A stretch of 62,070 nt of DNA from positions 1 through 62,070 of the forward strand of contig CAIQHF010000040.1 in the NCBI GenBank assembly GCA_903871605.1, read 5' to 3'. The translations under genes and the position numbers were made by a program. This stretch comes from an uncultured Sphingomonadaceae bacterium. GTDB lineage: Bacteria > Pseudomonadota > Alphaproteobacteria > Sphingomonadales > Sphingomonadaceae. The notes beneath the pieces were generated by a model, which made no database searches, had not been told where the DNA came from, and saw only the letters and a list, made by a program, of their open reading frames with translations. This document shows, piece after piece, positions 44,356 through 49,812 of the stretch. Positions within the stretch are counted from its first letter, which is position 1. Each line of letters begins with the position of its first letter.

Positions 44356-46095
44356 TCACTCCTCGTCGGGATAGGGGCCCTTGCCGCCGCTCGCGATGAA
44401 GCGGTCGGTCATCCGGTCGACCTCGCTCATCGGCACCGAGCCGAGCGCGAGCACCGCATCGTGGAAGGCGCGGATGTTGAACCTGGCGCCGAGCGCCGTC
44501 TCCGCGCGCGCGCGATTATCGCGGATCGTCTTCTCGCCGAGATAATAGCTGAGCGCCTGTCCCGGCCAGGAGATATAGCGATCGACCTCGTTGGCGATCT
44601 CGTGATCGGACAGCGCGGTATTGTCGTGGAGGAAGGCGATCGCCTGCGCGCGCGTCCAGCCGTCGTGGTGGATGCCGGTATCGACGACGAGCCGCGCCGC
44701 GCGCCACATCTGGTAGGAGAGCATCCCGAAGCGGTCATAGGGCGTCTCGTACATGCCCATCTCGTCGCCGAGCCGCTCGCAATAGAGCGCCCAGCCCTCG
44801 CCATAGGCCGAGATATAGCCGGACGAGCGGAATTCGGGCTGGTCCTTGTGCTCGGCGGCGAGCGGGATCTGGAAGGCGTGGCCAGGCGCGCTCTCGTGCA
44901 GCGTCAGCGCGGTGAACTGGTAGAGCGGGCGGCTCGGCAGATCATAGGTGTTGACCAGATAGACGCCGTCGCCGCCGCGTCCCGAGGTATAGAAGGGCGC
45001 GATCGCCGGCGGCACCGGCACGATCGCGAAGCGCTTGCGCGGCAGATGGCCGAACCAGGTCGACGATTTGGCGTCGAAGCGCTTGGCGGTCCATGCCGCA
45101 TCCTTGAGCAACTCGTCCGGGGTCTTGGCGTAGAAGCGCGGGTCGCTGCGCAGGAAGGTCAGGAAGGCGGGAAACTCGCCCTTGAAGCCGACCTGGCGCA
45201 TCACCGCGAGCATCTCGGCATGGATCGAGGCGACCTCGTGGAGGCCGATCGCATGGATCTGGTCGGGGGTGAGATCGAGCGTGGTGAACTCGGCGATCTT
45301 GCTCTTGTAATAGGCGACGCCGTCGGGCTGCTTCTCGGCGGCGAGCACCGGATTGGCGTGCGGCACATAATCGTCGCGCCAATAGGTCAGCAGCTTGGCA
45401 TAGGACGGCACGACCGTCGCCAGGATCGCCGTTCGCGCCTCGGCGCGCAGCTGCGCCTGGCGCGCGGCGGGAATGGTGTTCGGCATCGTCTTGAACGGCG
45501 CCCAGAAGCCGGTCTCCTCCGCCGACTTCGCATTGGCGATCATCGCGATCGACTGGTCGCGGCCCTCGAGCGTCACCTGCGGGGGGGTGAATCCGCGCGC
45601 CTCGCCGGCCTTCATATTGGCGATCTGCTGGGCGAAATAGCGCGGCACTTCGGAGAGTTCGGAGAGATAGTTGCGATATTCCTGTTCGGAACGCAGCGGC
45701 TTCTCGTCCAACCCTGCAAGATCGCCCCAGAAGCTCGAATCCGAATTGGCGGGCTTCTGCCACTCCATGAAGCGTTGCCCGGCGAGTAAGGCATCGATCT
45801 GCCCCTTGTAGACCGCATAGTTGATCTGATTGTCGGGCGAGAGCGCGTCGCGCGGGATCGCCGCCAGCTGCGCCTCGACCTGGGTCCACATCGCGGTGCG
45901 CAGCGCCTGCGCGGCGGGCGAGACGTCGGCGAGGTGCGGGCTCATGATGCGATCCTGCCCCTCGCCCTCGGGCTCGGCGAAGCTGTTCAGACGCCAGCGA
46001 TATTCGGCGGTGTAGACATCCTTGAAGCGGGCGTTCCAGTCGGCCGGGGCGGCGGCGATCAGCAGGGGCAGCAACAGCAGGGCGACGCGACGCAT
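44356..46095 (-). CDS. DUF885 metallopeptidase-like exported protein
   Basis: The 579-residue product (ATG 46095) has a signal peptide (MRRVALLLLPLLIAAAPADW) and a DUF885 domain covering the rest. The zinc-type motif ALTLHESAPGHAFQIPLAAE (HExxxGH, about residue 395), the downstream Glu in YGEGWALYCERLGDEMG, and QMWRAARLVVDTGIHHDGW with LSYYLGEKTI are the usual DUF885 blocks. These proteins look like M32/M3-type carboxypeptidases or dipeptidases; activity is rarely tested. It starts 42 bases after the regulator gene of the peptide operon, in the same direction, so it may be the last gene of that operon. Confidence 0.88.
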   Translation of the reverse strand: MRRVALLLLPLLIAAAPADWNARFKDVYTAEYRWRLNSFAEPEGEGQDRIMSPHLADVSPAAQALRTAMWTQVEAQLAAIPRDALSPDNQINYAVYKGQIDALLAGQRFMEWQKPANSDSSFWGDLAGLDEKPLRSEQEYRNYLSELSEVPRYFAQQIANMKAGEARGFTPPQVTLEGRDQSIAMIANAKSAEETGFWAPFKTMPNTIPAARQAQLRAEARTAILATVVPSYAKLLTYWRDDYVPHANPVLAAEKQPDGVAYYKSKIAEFTTLDLTPDQIHAIGLHEVASIHAEMLAVMRQVGFKGEFPAFLTFLRSDPRFYAKTPDELLKDAAWTAKRFDAKSSTWFGHLPRKRFAIVPVPPAIAPFYTSGRGGDGVYLVNTYDLPSRPLYQFTALTLHESAPGHAFQIPLAAEHKDQPEFRSSGYISAYGEGWALYCERLGDEMGMYETPYDRFGMLSYQMWRAARLVVDTGIHHDGWTRAQAIAFLHDNTALSDHEIANEVDRYISWPGQALSYYLGEKTIRDNRARAETALGARFNIRAFHDAVLALGSVPMSEVDRMTDRFIASGGKGPYPDEE

Positions 46096-46137: not shown

Positions 46138-46773
46138 TCAGCGCACCGCAACCGCCGTCTCGGACAACATATAGCCGCTGCCGACGGTGTGGATCAGCGG
46201 ACGGGCGAAACCATGGTCGACCTTGGCGCGCAACCGCGAGACCGTGACCGCGACGATGTTGGTGCCCGGATCGAACTGCCGCCGCCAGACCGCGCCGAGC
46301 AGCGCCATCCGCTCGACCGGCCGCCCTCGCGCGCTCGCCAATGCCGCGAGCAGCGCGAATTCGCGCGGATGGAGCGGCAAGGGCCTGCCCGCGCGCTCGG
46401 CCGCGCGCGCGAGGCGATCGATGCGCAGATCGGCGCATTCGATCGGCGGCATGCGTCGCAGCCGGACGAGCGCGCGCAGCCGCGCGGCAAGCTCGACCGG
46501 GTCGGCGGGGGCCGCCACCACGTCGGCCGCTCCCGCATCGAGCAGCCGGGCGCGATCGATCGCGTCACCGGGACCGTCGACGATGACGATCGGTGTCGCG
46601 CGCTCGACCGAAGCGAGCAGCGCCGGCAGATCGCGGGCTTCGGCGAGCAGCGCATCGATCGCGGGAGCGTCGCCGCCGCTGCCGCCGACGACGACGATGC
46701 CCTCCCGAGCCAGCGCCGCCGCCAGCTCCGCCCCCGCCGCCCCCCGGCAATCCGCCACCCGCACGCACGACAT
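46138..46773 (-). CDS. Orphan OmpR/PhoB-type regulator with degenerate receiver
   Basis: The 211-residue product (ATG 46773) ends in a winged-helix DNA-binding domain: LPLHPREFALLAALASARGR then MALLGAVWRR, IVAVTVSRLRAKVDHG and LIHTVGSGYML, a clear OmpR/PhoB family match. The N-terminal 110 residues have receiver-like layout (LLDAGAADVVAAPADPVELA resembles the alpha4-beta5 end), but the usual KP(F) lysine is replaced by Ala, and I see no acidic pair or phospho-acceptor Asp in place. It is probably phosphorylation-independent. No histidine kinase is nearby. It starts 7 bases after the B protein gene and is likely co-transcribed with the small peptide. Confidence 0.85.
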   Translation of the reverse strand: MSCVRVADCRGAAGAELAAALAREGIVVVGGSGGDAPAIDALLAEARDLPALLASVERATPIVIVDGPGDAIDRARLLDAGAADVVAAPADPVELAARLRALVRLRRMPPIECADLRIDRLARAAERAGRPLPLHPREFALLAALASARGRPVERMALLGAVWRRQFDPGTNIVAVTVSRLRAKVDHGFARPLIHTVGSGYMLSETAVAVR

Positions 46774-46780
46774 CGGCGGA

Positions 46781-47740
46781 TCATGCCGGAATCGGATGCG
46801 ACTCCAACCGCTTATGCGTCCATTCCGGTGTCCGCTGCCCGGCCCAGCGCAGCACCGCCGGCGCCTCGGCCAGCACATGCGCGGCGCCCGCCGAGACGAA
46901 GCGATCGCCGCGCCGTGCCGCCGCCTCGAGAATCGCCATCCGAGCCGCCGCCCCCTCCGCCGCGCCCGCCAGCGCGCGCACCGCGGCGAAACGGATACGA
47001 TCGACCGGGTGGCGCGCGGCGATATGGTGCAGCAGATCGGCGCCGTTTCCGCCGCCGAGATGCGCGGCGAGTGGCAGCAACCCTTCGATCGCGGTGACGT
47101 TGAGCAGCCCCGCTATCCGCCCCGCATCGGTATCGAAGCGATATTGGTTGCGCCACGGCTCGCGGCCGCTCGCCTCCATCAGGTTGAGCGTCACCGAAAA
47201 GGCGCGCGGCGGCCGCTGCGCATGGACATCGCGGTGCGCGCGGTAGAGCAGCATCGTGCCCGGCTCGAGCCGCCTGCGCCCGAGCGCACGCAGCGCCACC
47301 GCTTCGCCCACGTGCCCGAGCGGCAGCGCGTCGACCTCCCAATAGTCGCTCTCATAGCCGGGGCCGTGGTGGCCGATCGTGAGAAAGGAGAAATTATGGT
47401 CGTGCGGCAGATCGTAGAAGAAGGCGCGCCGCCCGCTCGCGCGCAGCACCGCATCTGTCTCCGCCGGCCACAGATTGGCGCGCAGCAGCCAGTTGCCGAC
47501 GCCCTGGCTGAGCATCATCACCGGCGGGCCATAGACGCCCGGCGCGTCGTCGCAGCGCTTGAGCGCCGCCACCGCGATGTCGCCGAGAAAGCCGCGATCG
47601 GCCGACAGCGCGGCGAGGATCGGCGCGGCGGCGTCCCATGCCGCCGCGTCCTCGGAATCGAAGCCGATCGCGACCAGCCGGTCGATCGCCGCTTCGAGCC
47701 CGATCGGCGGCGGCGAACCGGGATCGATCAGGCGCGGCAA
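46781..47740 (-). CDS. Cupin-like histidine-rich protein with HEAT-like tail ('B' of the peptide operon)
   Basis: The product (319 residues from TTG 47740; start uncertain, no ATG available) has a central region FFYDLPHDHNFSFLTIGHHG, DYWEVD, then RRRLEPGTMLLYRAHRDVHA and FSVTLNLM. Histidines at about 113, 115, 124, 125, 169 and 173 and Glu135 could form a 2-His/Glu metal site in a beta-barrel; this is inference. The last 110 residues are Ala/Leu helical repeats (RIRFAAVRALAGAAEG). It shares the arrangement and many positions with the preceding gene's product (for example RRRL.xG then helical tail), so the two are paralogues. The gene overlaps the upstream stop by 13 bases. I do not know a characterised family. 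Confidence 0.75.
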   Translation of the reverse strand: MPRLIDPGSPPPIGLEAAIDRLVAIGFDSEDAAAWDAAAPILAALSADRGFLGDIAVAALKRCDDAPGVYGPPVMMLSQGVGNWLLRANLWPAETDAVLRASGRRAFFYDLPHDHNFSFLTIGHHGPGYESDYWEVDALPLGHVGEAVALRALGRRRLEPGTMLLYRAHRDVHAQRPPRAFSVTLNLMEASGREPWRNQYRFDTDAGRIAGLLNVTAIEGLLPLAAHLGGGNGADLLHHIAARHPVDRIRFAAVRALAGAAEGAAARMAILEAAARRGDRFVSAGAAHVLAEAPAVLRWAGQRTPEWTHKRLESHPIPA

Positions 47741-48663
47741 GCGACCGGCCCCGCGATCAGCGCGATCGTCTCCGCCGCCAGCGCGCGTAGCTCGGCATCG
47801 CTGTCGCGCGCCGCGATCTCGGCGAGCCGCGCCGCTGCGGCGTCGGCATCGAGCGCGAGCCATTCGCGCATCGCATGCCAGCGGACATGCGGCTCGGGCG
47901 CACGGCTCGCCACCTCGAACGCGCAGCCGTCATGGCGCCCGATCGCGCCGAGCAGGCTCGTCAGCATTTCGGCACGCGAGGCGCGTTCGCTCGCCGCGCT
48001 CGTCGCGCGCAGCGCCAGCGTCGCGCGATCATATTCGCAGGCGGTCGGCGCTGCGCCCGCGAAGATGGTCGCATGGAGCAGCACCATGTCGCGCCGCGCA
48101 TGATCGACAAGAAAGCTCGTGCGCGCATCCAATTCGAGGAGCTCGCCATCGCCCAGCCGGCGTCTCCCGATCGGCACGCACGCCGTCATCGGCGCACCCC
48201 CGCGCCACCCGCCCCGCCACAGCGACAGCGTCGCGCCGCCGCCATCGAGCACCCGGATCAGCGTCATGGCGCCGGTGAAGCCGATCGATCCGCCGCCGCC
48301 GCGCCGTTTGTGCGCCGCGAGCCGATCGAGCGCGCCGACCCCCAACACGACCGCGGCATGGCGCCCCCGATAGAGCGTCAGCCCCGCCTGCACCGCGCTC
48401 CGCACGGGAAGCAGCGGCGGGTCGAACAGCGGATCGCGTGCCACCTCGGCGATCAGGGCCACGACCACGCCGCTCACCCAGCCGGCATCCGCGAGCACCG
48501 GGCGGAGCAGCGCGGCCACCGCCCCCGCATCGGGCTGGTCGAGCGCATCGAGCGACGCCGCCAGCGTCTCGAGGGGCGTCCCGGCGCGCCACCGTGCCGC
48601 GAAGTCGGCGATCGCGGCGCGCCGCCCTGCCGACCGGACCTGGCTGGCAAGCGCCTGATCCAT
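47728..48663 (-). CDS. Paralogue of the cupin-like protein lacking its histidines ('A' of the peptide operon)
   Basis: The 311-residue product (ATG 48663) aligns by eye with the next gene's product in the core RRRLGDGELLELDARTSFLV ... TLALRATSA and in the helical tail EPHVRWHAMREWLALDADAA then AELRALAAETIALIAG. The histidine clusters of the partner are absent (LSLWRGGW and DARTSFLVDH in the matching places). The first 100 residues are helical (PLETLAASLDALDQPDAGAV). There is no signal peptide. The gene starts 6 bases after the small peptide gene and overlaps the next gene. An enzyme/pseudoenzyme pair is possible. Confidence 0.75.
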   Translation of the reverse strand: MDQALASQVRSAGRRAAIADFAARWRAGTPLETLAASLDALDQPDAGAVAALLRPVLADAGWVSGVVVALIAEVARDPLFDPPLLPVRSAVQAGLTLYRGRHAAVVLGVGALDRLAAHKRRGGGGSIGFTGAMTLIRVLDGGGATLSLWRGGWRGGAPMTACVPIGRRRLGDGELLELDARTSFLVDHARRDMVLLHATIFAGAAPTACEYDRATLALRATSAASERASRAEMLTSLLGAIGRHDGCAFEVASRAPEPHVRWHAMREWLALDADAAAARLAEIAARDSDAELRALAAETIALIAGPVACRA

Positions 48664-48669
48664 GCGCGT

Positions 48670-48828
48670 TCAGGCCTTGTAGGTCGCGAGCGCCACCGCG
48701 ATGCCGAAGCAGATCGAGCCGCCCACCTCGGCTTGCCGCATCGTGCCATATTGGCCGACCGGGCGTGCGAGCGCGGGAATGGCCGCGAGCGGCAGGCCGG
48801 CGCGGCGGCTCTTGTCGAAATCGTCCAT
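48670..48828 (-). CDS. 52-residue peptide, first gene of the operon
   Basis: ATG 48828 is preceded by a strong Shine-Dalgarno (GGGGAGA, seven bases away) and the frame ends with TGA at 48670-48672. The product starts MDDFDKSRRAGLPLAAIPAL, continues ARPVGQYGTMRQAEVGG and ends SICFGIAVALATYKA. The front is charged and helical; the back is a hydrophobic Gly/Ala/Ile/Val stretch with one Cys40 and a Tyr-Lys-Ala end. It could be a precursor peptide with leader and core, a short membrane peptide or a signal. The tight spacing to two paralogous proteins and a regulator supports a real gene. No known RiPP class is matched. Confidence 0.75.
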   Translation of the reverse strand: MDDFDKSRRAGLPLAAIPALARPVGQYGTMRQAEVGGSICFGIAVALATYKA

Positions 48829-48886
48829 GATGCGTCTCCCCTTGGATCGACGCACAAAATTCAGCATCGCTCGCGCCCGAAGGGAA

Positions 48887-48902
48887 ATTACATGAGTGTA
48901 AT
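48887..48902. promoter_or_regulatory. Perfect dyad ATTACA-TGAG-TGTAAT upstream of the peptide operon
   Basis: ATTACA (48887-48892) and TGTAAT (48897-48902) are exact inverted repeats around TGAG, 59 bases upstream of the peptide ATG and 63 bases upstream of the divergent thioesterase gene. It is A/T-rich against a GC-rich background, so it is a good operator candidate, possibly for the orphan regulator of the operon. Confidence 0.55.
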
Positions 48903-48964: not shown

Positions 48965-49414
48965 ATGTCCGATGCCTTGCCCGCCTGGCCGCAGCAGCTT
49001 GATCCGCAGATGATCGCGCGCCTCGTCGCCGGGCTCGGCCATAGCGGCGCGCTGGGCACGCGCTTTATCGGTCATGGCGCGGATTGGGCCGAACTCGCGA
49101 TCGACTATCGCGAGGACCTGATCGGCGATGCCGAATCCGGCGTGCTCGCCTCCGGCCCGATCGTCGCGCTGATGGACATCGCGACCAGCCTGTCGGTGTG
49201 GATCAAGCGCGGCGCGTTCCGGCCGCAGGCGACGCTCGACCTGCGCATCGACTATCTGCGCGCGGCGACGCCCGGACGCACCGTGATCGGACGCGGCGAA
49301 TGCTACCGGCTGACGCGGCGCGTCGCCTTCGTCCGCGGGCAGGCGCATGACGGCGATCCCGCCGATCCGATCGCGCACGTCACCGGCACCTTCATGACGA
49401 CCGACGAGGGATGA
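48965..49414 (+). CDS. PaaI-type hot-dog thioesterase (first of a pair)
   Basis: The 149-residue product has a single hot-dog fold: LGTRFIGHGADWAELAIDYR, LASGPIVALMDIATSLSVWI (the helix start with conserved Gly/Asp of the PaaI group), ATLDLRIDYLRAATPGRTVI and VAFVRGQAHDGDPADPIAHV then TGTFM. Proteins of this group hydrolyse acyl-CoA thioesters. The substrate is unknown. It overlaps the next, similar gene by four bases; the two likely act as a heteromeric enzyme or a duplicated function. It diverges from the peptide operon. Confidence 0.88.
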   Translation: MSDALPAWPQQLDPQMIARLVAGLGHSGALGTRFIGHGADWAELAIDYREDLIGDAESGVLASGPIVALMDIATSLSVWIKRGAFRPQATLDLRIDYLRAATPGRTVIGRGECYRLTRRVAFVRGQAHDGDPADPIAHVTGTFMTTDEG

Positions 49415-49812
49415 GCGACAACCCCGCGCTGCTGCTGCCGCCCTATGGCGGGTTTCTGGGCATATTGACCGACCGCGACGCGGCCGGCGCGCTGCTGTTC
49501 CGGATGCCGTTCGGCTACCGCGTGGTCGGGCGACCGGGCTTCCTCCACGGCGGCGCGATCGCGGGGCTGCTCGAGATCGCCGCGGTCGGCACGCTGCGCG
49601 ACGCGCTCGCCGACGATCCGGGCGCGTCGGTCAAGCCGATCACGGTGACGGTCGACTTCATGCGCGGCGGGCGCGAGCGCGACACCTTCGCCGCGGCGCT
49701 GATCACCCGGCTCGGCGCGCGCATCGCCAATGTCGAGGCCTTCGCCTGGCAGGACGACCGCGACAAGCCGATCGCCGCGGCGCGAATGAACCTGATGGTG
49801 CGGCGGGGCTGA
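49411..49812 (+). CDS. PaaI-type hot-dog thioesterase (second of a pair)
   Basis: The 133-residue product also has one hot-dog domain: FRMPFGYRVVGRPGFLHGGA then IAGLLEIAAVGTL, with the active-site-like HGGAIAGLLE of PaaI proteins, and VKPITVTVDFMRGGRERDTF and ANVEAFAWQDDRDKPIAAAR. It keeps the HGG motif that its upstream neighbour lacks (the neighbour has ASG), so this may be the catalytic half. ATG lies in the overlap with the first gene's TGA. Confidence 0.88.
   Translation: MSDNPALLLPPYGGFLGILTDRDAAGALLFRMPFGYRVVGRPGFLHGGAIAGLLEIAAVGTLRDALADDPGASVKPITVTVDFMRGGRERDTFAAALITRLGARIANVEAFAWQDDRDKPIAAARMNLMVRRG

Follow-up and report, generated by a model that had tools for sequence, protein, structure and literature searches.

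Loci for ribosomally synthesised and post-translationally modified peptides (RiPPs) usually include a recognised modifying enzyme, although this is not required of a new class, and the RiPP recognition element (RRE) is not universal. Among cupin enzymes, two-chain dioxygenases such as PnpCD combine an active with a non-catalytic cupin chain, and cysteine dioxygenase and the plant cysteine oxidases have an H-x-H...H histidine triad. There is a precedent for a cupin-like protein in RiPP formation in the pbs (biphenomycin-like) cluster, where PbsQ is able to hydroxylate the RiPP precursor, according to the available portion of the published account (PMC12257519). Here we discuss a locus in a stretch of 62,070 nucleotides (the window) from an uncultured Sphingomonadaceae bacterium, comprising positions 1 to 62,070 of the forward strand of contig CAIQHF010000040.1 in assembly GCA_903871605.1. 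As read from its open reading frames (ORFs), the minus strand carries one tight operon of four genes, for a 52-codon peptide, two proteins that we call A and B, and a regulator, REG. We suggest, with a probability of about 0.6, that this is a RiPP-type cassette, in which the peptide would be the precursor, A and B a two-protein maturation complex and REG a dedicated regulator, with A positioning the peptide and B oxidising or otherwise altering it.

Peptide, A and B are a real co-conserved unit. B was found in 97 of the 296 Sphingomonadales genomes searched (about one third), mostly in single copy, and A in 99, which are the 97 with B and two others with weak partial matches; in G097 and G215 the two genes are on separate contigs, and the A match of G215 is partial. 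We analysed 64 loci, comprising 60 from 58 of the other 96 B-bearing genomes together with the window, L033, L034 and L035, and a homologue of the peptide is present just upstream of A in 62 of them. A profile built from 14 seed peptides found 57 of these when run against the 17,870 six-frame segments of the 64 loci, the seeds having come from 14 of the 57 loci that it matched. All 57 on-site matches (E <= 0.091) are upstream of A on the coding strand, and the best match elsewhere has an E value of 1.3. The other five, from L033, L044, L057, L068 and L085, were assigned by eye or from weak matches, and neither the profile nor inspection gave a confident peptide call in L084 or L088. With a second peptide profile, applied to whole genomes, there was an on-site match in all eight cassette-bearing genomes, two of which had supplied rows to it, and at E < 0.05 a match in one (G119) of 18 genomes lacking B; an intact peptide without A and B was seen in none of these 18. 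The peptide is under purifying selection in the relatives: synonymous changes outnumber replacement changes in each of 16 comparable pairs, with dN/dS of 0.08-0.53, for pairs that overlap in their members, are thus not independent, and do not include the window peptide. What is conserved is the arrangement looked for in a RiPP locus, a short precursor gene that travels with putative maturation genes (62 of 64 loci, and the same 97 genomes for A and B).

An earlier interpretation made from the letters of the window, which we refer to as the sequence-only reading, had held that the idea of a system fails if the peptide is not conserved beside A and B, and we find it there in 62 of 64 loci. As a check the same reading proposed to look for co-conservation of all four genes. 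Peptide, A and B are conserved together, but REG lies directly after B in only 15 of the 64 loci.

In the window the peptide gene (48670-48828, minus strand, 52 aa) has its ATG at 48828, preceded by a ribosome-binding site, AAGGGGAG (48836-48843, minus strand), with a seven-base spacer. A (47728-48663, minus strand, 311 aa) begins six bases past the peptide stop. B (46781-47740, minus strand, 319 aa) has a TTG start and overlaps A by 13 bases, and REG (46138-46773, minus strand, 211 aa), a winged-helix regulator, follows seven bases past B. When we went over the window again these coordinates and spacings, the overlap of A and B and the ribosome site were all as first reported. The TTG start of B is credible because M-P-R or something similar is found at the same place in most relatives. 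The frame of the peptide stays open to an alternative ATG at 48867, which would give 65 aa, but the ribosome site and the relatives favour 48828. The G+C content is high and 63 ORFs of at least 40 aa overlap the 8 kb around the cassette; a lone 52-codon ORF is unremarkable in such DNA, and the case for the peptide therefore rests on its conservation.

The 68 peptides analysed (L070 was left out of the statistics as its peptide start is doubtful) are 36-58 aa long and mostly acidic, with a median net charge of -5, and 55 of them have no cysteine. Most have [I/L]xx[I/L]PxL near the N-terminus. The most hydrophobic stretch of 11 residues begins about two thirds of the way along, with a median best hydropathy of 2.2. 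In the main group the C-terminal segments resemble DDRxVVIMVYxYE. In the window's group, to which L034, L045, L046, L051, L128 and the Alteromonas plasmid also belong, V-[G/A]-[G/A]-x(1,2)-C precedes a hydrophobic stretch; in the window peptide itself an N-terminal half with AIPAL leads to V-G-G-S-I-C and a C-terminal stretch that is hydrophobic. Within the main group the peptides are alike, and this, together with the chromosomal setting that they often share, favours a signal or other physiological role over that of a fast-evolving antimicrobial.

Among A, B and the peptide of the window, only A has a match in Pfam or NCBIfam, a weak one to HEAT_2 that is below the cut-off. HEAT_2 is also matched at E <= 0.1 by 13 of 62 B proteins (best 4.3e-5), although not by B of the window in Pfam. 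A and B had been described as paralogues, which is right at long distance: the two are not recognisably similar by BLASTP (E 0.38), and the relationship is seen at the profile level alone, where 270 columns align with P 3.6e-5 and a probability of 71%. In the case of B an alignment of 62 rows, with the broken proteins of L049 and L087 left out, has R87, W91, H113, H115, T121, Y166, R167, D171, H173 and S182 in every row, and D114 and V172 in nearly every one. The resulting signature, H113-D-H115 ... D171-V-H173, contains the H-x-H and further histidine of cupin metal sites in all 62 and suggests that B is a metal-binding cupin. In the case of A the alignment has 49 rows, 15 of the 64 loci being omitted because A was not called or its start is doubtful; only R261, W262 and A296 are invariant, the best histidine column has 27 of 49, and no column of metal-ligand histidines is conserved. 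A C-[PR]-A motif at the C-terminus of A was considered and then discounted as a consequence of its overlap with the start codon of B.

The AlphaFold models are poor, with mean pLDDT of 53 for B (three sequences) and 49 for A, and both have a helical N-terminal part, a beta middle and a helical HEAT-like C-terminal part. Foldseek matches to such models can serve as leads only, but cupins were prominent near the top for both proteins. There was no significant match for the B model (best E 0.028), with plant cysteine oxidases, ectoine synthase, SbzM and PnpCD near the top. For the A model PnpCD came first (E 0.012, also not significant), and cysteine dioxygenases and HppE were mixed with TGF-beta and other unrelated chains. 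Nothing useful came from comparing the B profile with PDB sequences (best E 0.24). From motif and models we infer an active cupin in B and a dead one in A.

Relatives outside the Sphingomonadales were sought by sampling genomes across the Pseudomonadota. There were two matches outside the window's family among 398 genomes, and when the families of those two were searched 4 of 118 and 6 of 119 genomes were positive, the centres included; a scan of genome contigs with a single sequence gave two relatives. In L033, on an Alteromonas stellipolaris plasmid, the order is Yip1, an HlyD-type adaptor, MacB ATPase and permease, two peptides, A, B, an ABC ATPase and an ABC-2 permease. In L128, from genome G795 of another family, it is adaptor, MacB ATPase and permease, three peptides, A, B, ABC ATPase and a further ORF, the last ORF of the shared order being recognised as an ABC-2 permease in L033 only. 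Export genes are also present in L129, as judged by reading the sequence. In L130 and L132 the A-B pairs are within a few genes of TIGR04511 peptide maturation dehydrogenases, which are above the cut-off in both, and of NHLP-type peptides, above the cut-off in L132 and below it in L130. A short ORF is present upstream of A in 9 of the 11 loci checked from outside the order, and in four of these (L126, L127, L130 and L132) it is unlike the peptide family.

Some further features of these loci may be recorded. L130 has two tandem A-B pairs (L130:7440-14293) and L132 has one (L132:2831-8816). A small ORF at L130:9502-9693 has a doubled S-T-[LA]-F-I-F-A-A-[RQ]-[KR] segment resembling two core repeats. 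The short ORFs upstream of A or nearby in L126 (8363-8524 and 6238-6426), and their counterparts in L127, look by eye like double-glycine and KLxLNKxKLxxL-type leaders, and the family scans gave no natural-product match for them; the double-glycine-like leader is our own reading of the L126 and L127 peptide. L151, from a viral collection, has a B-family gene at a contig end next to an integrase-like ORF recognised by eye (L151:3-884 and 1485-2600), and could be either prophage host flank or cargo.

REG has an OmpR-family winged-helix domain (Pfam Trans_reg_C, E 2.9e-17). Its receiver region matches Response_reg only at E 0.02 over 47 residues, below the cut-off, and no acceptor-Asp segment was seen by eye. 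Its sequence thus identifies REG as an OmpR-family winged-helix regulator with a degenerate receiver-like N-terminus. There are 44 NCBIfam regulator models that match it, and among the matches listed all are below their cut-offs. No kinase gene is present in the window cassette. REG had been taken as a member of the system, and it is one in the window, but not in general, as is clear from the count of loci given above.

In 59 loci the 220 bp preceding the peptide have a motif in common, with the consensus.ATTACAAt.TTTTAATTt. Of three runs the best gave 22.5 bits, whereas two single runs with shuffled sequences gave 6.5 and 7.3; some of the 59 sites, a minority, are poor. In the window we find a candidate operator in the peptide promoter region, ATTACACTCATGTAATT (48886-48902, minus strand), with a core inverted repeat, TTACA-N4-TGTAA, at 48888-48901 that occurs exactly once in the 4.28 Mb genome. 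A looser pattern, TTACANNNNTKTAAYT, was tried on 16 hand-picked genomes, 15 with the cassette and one, G290, which is the sole other sampled genome of the window's genus and has no match for A, B or the peptide. Exactly one match was found in 10 of the 15 and none in the other five or in G290; in each of the ten the match is on the peptide side of A, 237-282 bp away from where the A match begins, and the reversed control of the pattern gave one match in all 16 genomes. Two readings of the site are possible, an inverted repeat or a pair of half-sites 10 bp apart, and the latter spacing is that given for OmpR-family sites in the part of PMC9275681 available. We considered a CtrA- or CenR-type site, but the CenR site in that same part, TGA-N8-TGA (PMC9275681), is different. 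REG may bind the candidate operator, a link that has to stay conditional because loci without REG also carry the motif.

The RiPP-type cassette that we propose would work as follows. A, a catalytically dead cupin/HEAT paralogue, would form a complex with B and hold the peptide by its conserved N-terminal half, [I/L]xx[I/L]PxL. B would be a cupin-fold metalloenzyme with three invariant histidines, probably binding iron, and would oxidise or otherwise alter residues of the hydrophobic C-terminal segment. The trimmed product would be exported, in some relatives presumably by the MacB-type ABC transporters encoded alongside and in the window genome by unlinked ones, and REG would set the output by binding the single operator upstream of the peptide. 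The occurrence of several diverged peptides with one A-B pair, of unrelated short ORFs at the same position, and of transporters and RiPP genes nearby makes substrate the best role for the peptide and maturase that for A-B. A RiPP or peptide-signalling locus had been suggested by the sequence-only reading, and has gained from the conservation of the peptide beside A and B and from the ABC exporters and RiPP genes of relatives, while modification of the peptide by A and B is something that we infer.

There are several observations that weigh against this proposal. Pfam and NCBIfam scans of the window cassette found neither a known RiPP enzyme nor a protease, an exporter or an RRE match, and the sequence-only reading had seen no lasso cyclase, radical-SAM, lanthipeptide or MNIO protein; in the case of the RRE (PqqD-like) there was nothing in Pfam at E <= 1, although diverged RREs are easily missed. 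No peptide is present upstream of A in L129 and L131, two of the 11 loci checked outside the order. In the commonest peptide group conservation is about equal in the C-terminal segment and the N-terminal half, an unusual pattern for the leader-core precursors of antimicrobials, and no residue of the C-terminal segment is common to all 68 peptides, so that the modified residue cannot be named. The cupin assignment of B comes from a motif and a poor model (pLDDT 53, Foldseek E 0.028). With regard to control, the operator pattern is without a match in 5 of 15 genomes that bear the cassette, and another regulator may read the site, as most loci without REG keep the upstream motif.

We have considered three other explanations. 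High G+C DNA has many spurious frames, and the short ORF could be one of these, with A and B an ordinary enzyme pair that has no peptide. This is already contradicted by conservation, and we regard it as extremely improbable: 62 of 64 loci have the peptide in the same position, its 57 profile matches outrank every off-site segment, dN/dS is below 0.6 in all 16 pairs and the upstream motif is shared. An explanation that deserves more attention, although we think it unlikely, is that A and B form an enzyme with some substrate other than the peptide, and that the peptide is a small subunit of it, structural or regulatory. Most loci have a single peptide, A and B, as such an enzyme would, the peptides of the main group resemble one another in both halves, and no transporter cluster is found beside the cassette in the listed Sphingomonadales loci, including the window. 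However there are two (L033) or three (L128) diverged peptides per A-B pair, and in L126, L127, L130 and L132 unrelated short ORFs upstream of A, as would be expected of substrates, and A-B is in places adjoined by MacB-type transporters or recognised RiPP genes.

It could also be that the peptide is a membrane-active toxin and that A and B, with REG, neutralise it or give immunity. A short peptide with a hydrophobic C-terminal stretch (the median best 11-residue hydropathy of 2.2) would fit this, as would the second ABC transporter beside A-B in L033 and L128, which could provide immunity, and the clean absence of the cassette from G290. We give this rather less weight than the subunit, since the invariant metal-site signature of B is unlike an antitoxin and most of the peptides are acidic (median net charge -5). 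Toxin-antitoxin pairs are also not typically made up of three proteins and a regulator, nor is slow evolution of the peptide typical of them.

The borders of the cassette are best seen by comparison with G290, where TE1, a hotdog (4HBT) thioesterase gene, and a DUF885 gene are divergent with start codons 164 bp apart, as against 2,869 bp in the window. The two genomes are 82% identical in DUF885 and 78% in TE1, and the best REG-like protein of G290 is 41% identical to REG, a level that a paralogue within the genome of the window equals or exceeds. Peptide, A, B and REG are thus absent together from G290 and both flanking genes are retained. Loss in G290 is the simpler reading because L034 has a full gene order identical to that of the window.

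In the window the ATG of the DUF885 gene is at 46095, 42 bases beyond REG, and this peptidase-like gene had been counted as part of the system. We reject this, as the gene is kept in cassette-less G290 and adjoins the cassette in just 2 of 64 loci, and treat it as a flanking gene. On the other side two tandem thioesterase genes, TE1 and TE2 (48965-49812), are divergent from the cassette. Among the 64 loci the TE1 cluster is a neighbour in 45 and TE2 in 38. They too were rejected as parts: of 18 B-lacking genomes tested (from the 199 in the sample), 14 have TE1, and 13 of these 14 have TE2 adjacent to it, and since the two persist together in genomes without the cassette they are independent of it.

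Decayed copies indicate that loss of the cassette may be frequent. In G119 (L153, G119:C1:697500-704500), a genome with no A or B matches, there is a decayed cassette beside a LysA-like gene, in which the start of the peptide is followed within about 0.5 kb by just a fragment matching A/B relatives. Several other cassettes also appear decayed, including L049, where B is split into two ORFs, G187:C4:1018882-1019439 and L129:8604-9026; the defects are a B that is split or has three in-frame stops, or a shortened A. There are also second A-B copies with their own short peptides, in L085 and L086 (G074:C3 and G145:C24), next to housekeeping genes, judged by eye to be YidC-like and YihA-like, a chromosomal setting unlike the main one.

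We would go further, tentatively and at a little under even odds, and suggest that this is an undescribed class of RiPP, with a maturase that would be a heterodimer of HEAT-tailed cupin paralogues, one dead and one metal-dependent, that would act on peptides with hydrophobic tails, serving a self-contained, one-operator chromosomal peptide-signalling circuit in Sphingomonadales and multi-peptide exporter clusters in other Proteobacteria. We did not find the system described in the literature searched, which included the available parts of PMC12257519, PMC9275681 and PMC12710340 and took in few subscription papers. If the suggestion is correct, about one third of the sampled Sphingomonadales genomes carry a peptide pathway missed by RiPP searches seeded on known enzymes, such searches being blind to it because weak HEAT repeats are all that Pfam and NCBIfam recognise in A and B. 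The four-gene unit, the close relative without a cassette as a control, the single operator and the peptide variants allow direct tests of precursor, chemistry and function.

With regard to known systems, the pairing of A and B brings to mind PnpCD, hydroquinone 1,2-dioxygenase, which was the first, non-significant Foldseek match of the A model (E 0.012) and was also among those of B. However PnpCD acts on a small molecule and has neither a HEAT-like C-terminus nor a peptide gene. The three-histidine thiol dioxygenases have the same H-x-H...H triad as B, and a plant cysteine oxidase was the first, again non-significant, match of the B model, but there was no such match in the PDB sequence search with B, and 55 of the 68 peptides have no cysteine. 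The TIGR04509 NHLP-related peptides and TIGR04511 dehydrogenase are found near A-B in L130 and L132, and the peptides likewise have short hydrophobic C-terminal ends; they are however a different precursor family, and the window cassette has no such dehydrogenase. The pbs cluster is like the window cassette in having a short precursor and a cupin-like protein that acts on it, the cupin gene overlapping its neighbour, as far as the accessible text describes it (PMC12257519). PbsQ differs in being a relative of the JmjC protein BpmG and, in that text, one of several enzymes in a pathway with MNIO and B12-radical-SAM proteins (PMC12257519), whereas in the window cassette the cupin-like B and its putatively dead paralogue A are the sole candidate enzymes.

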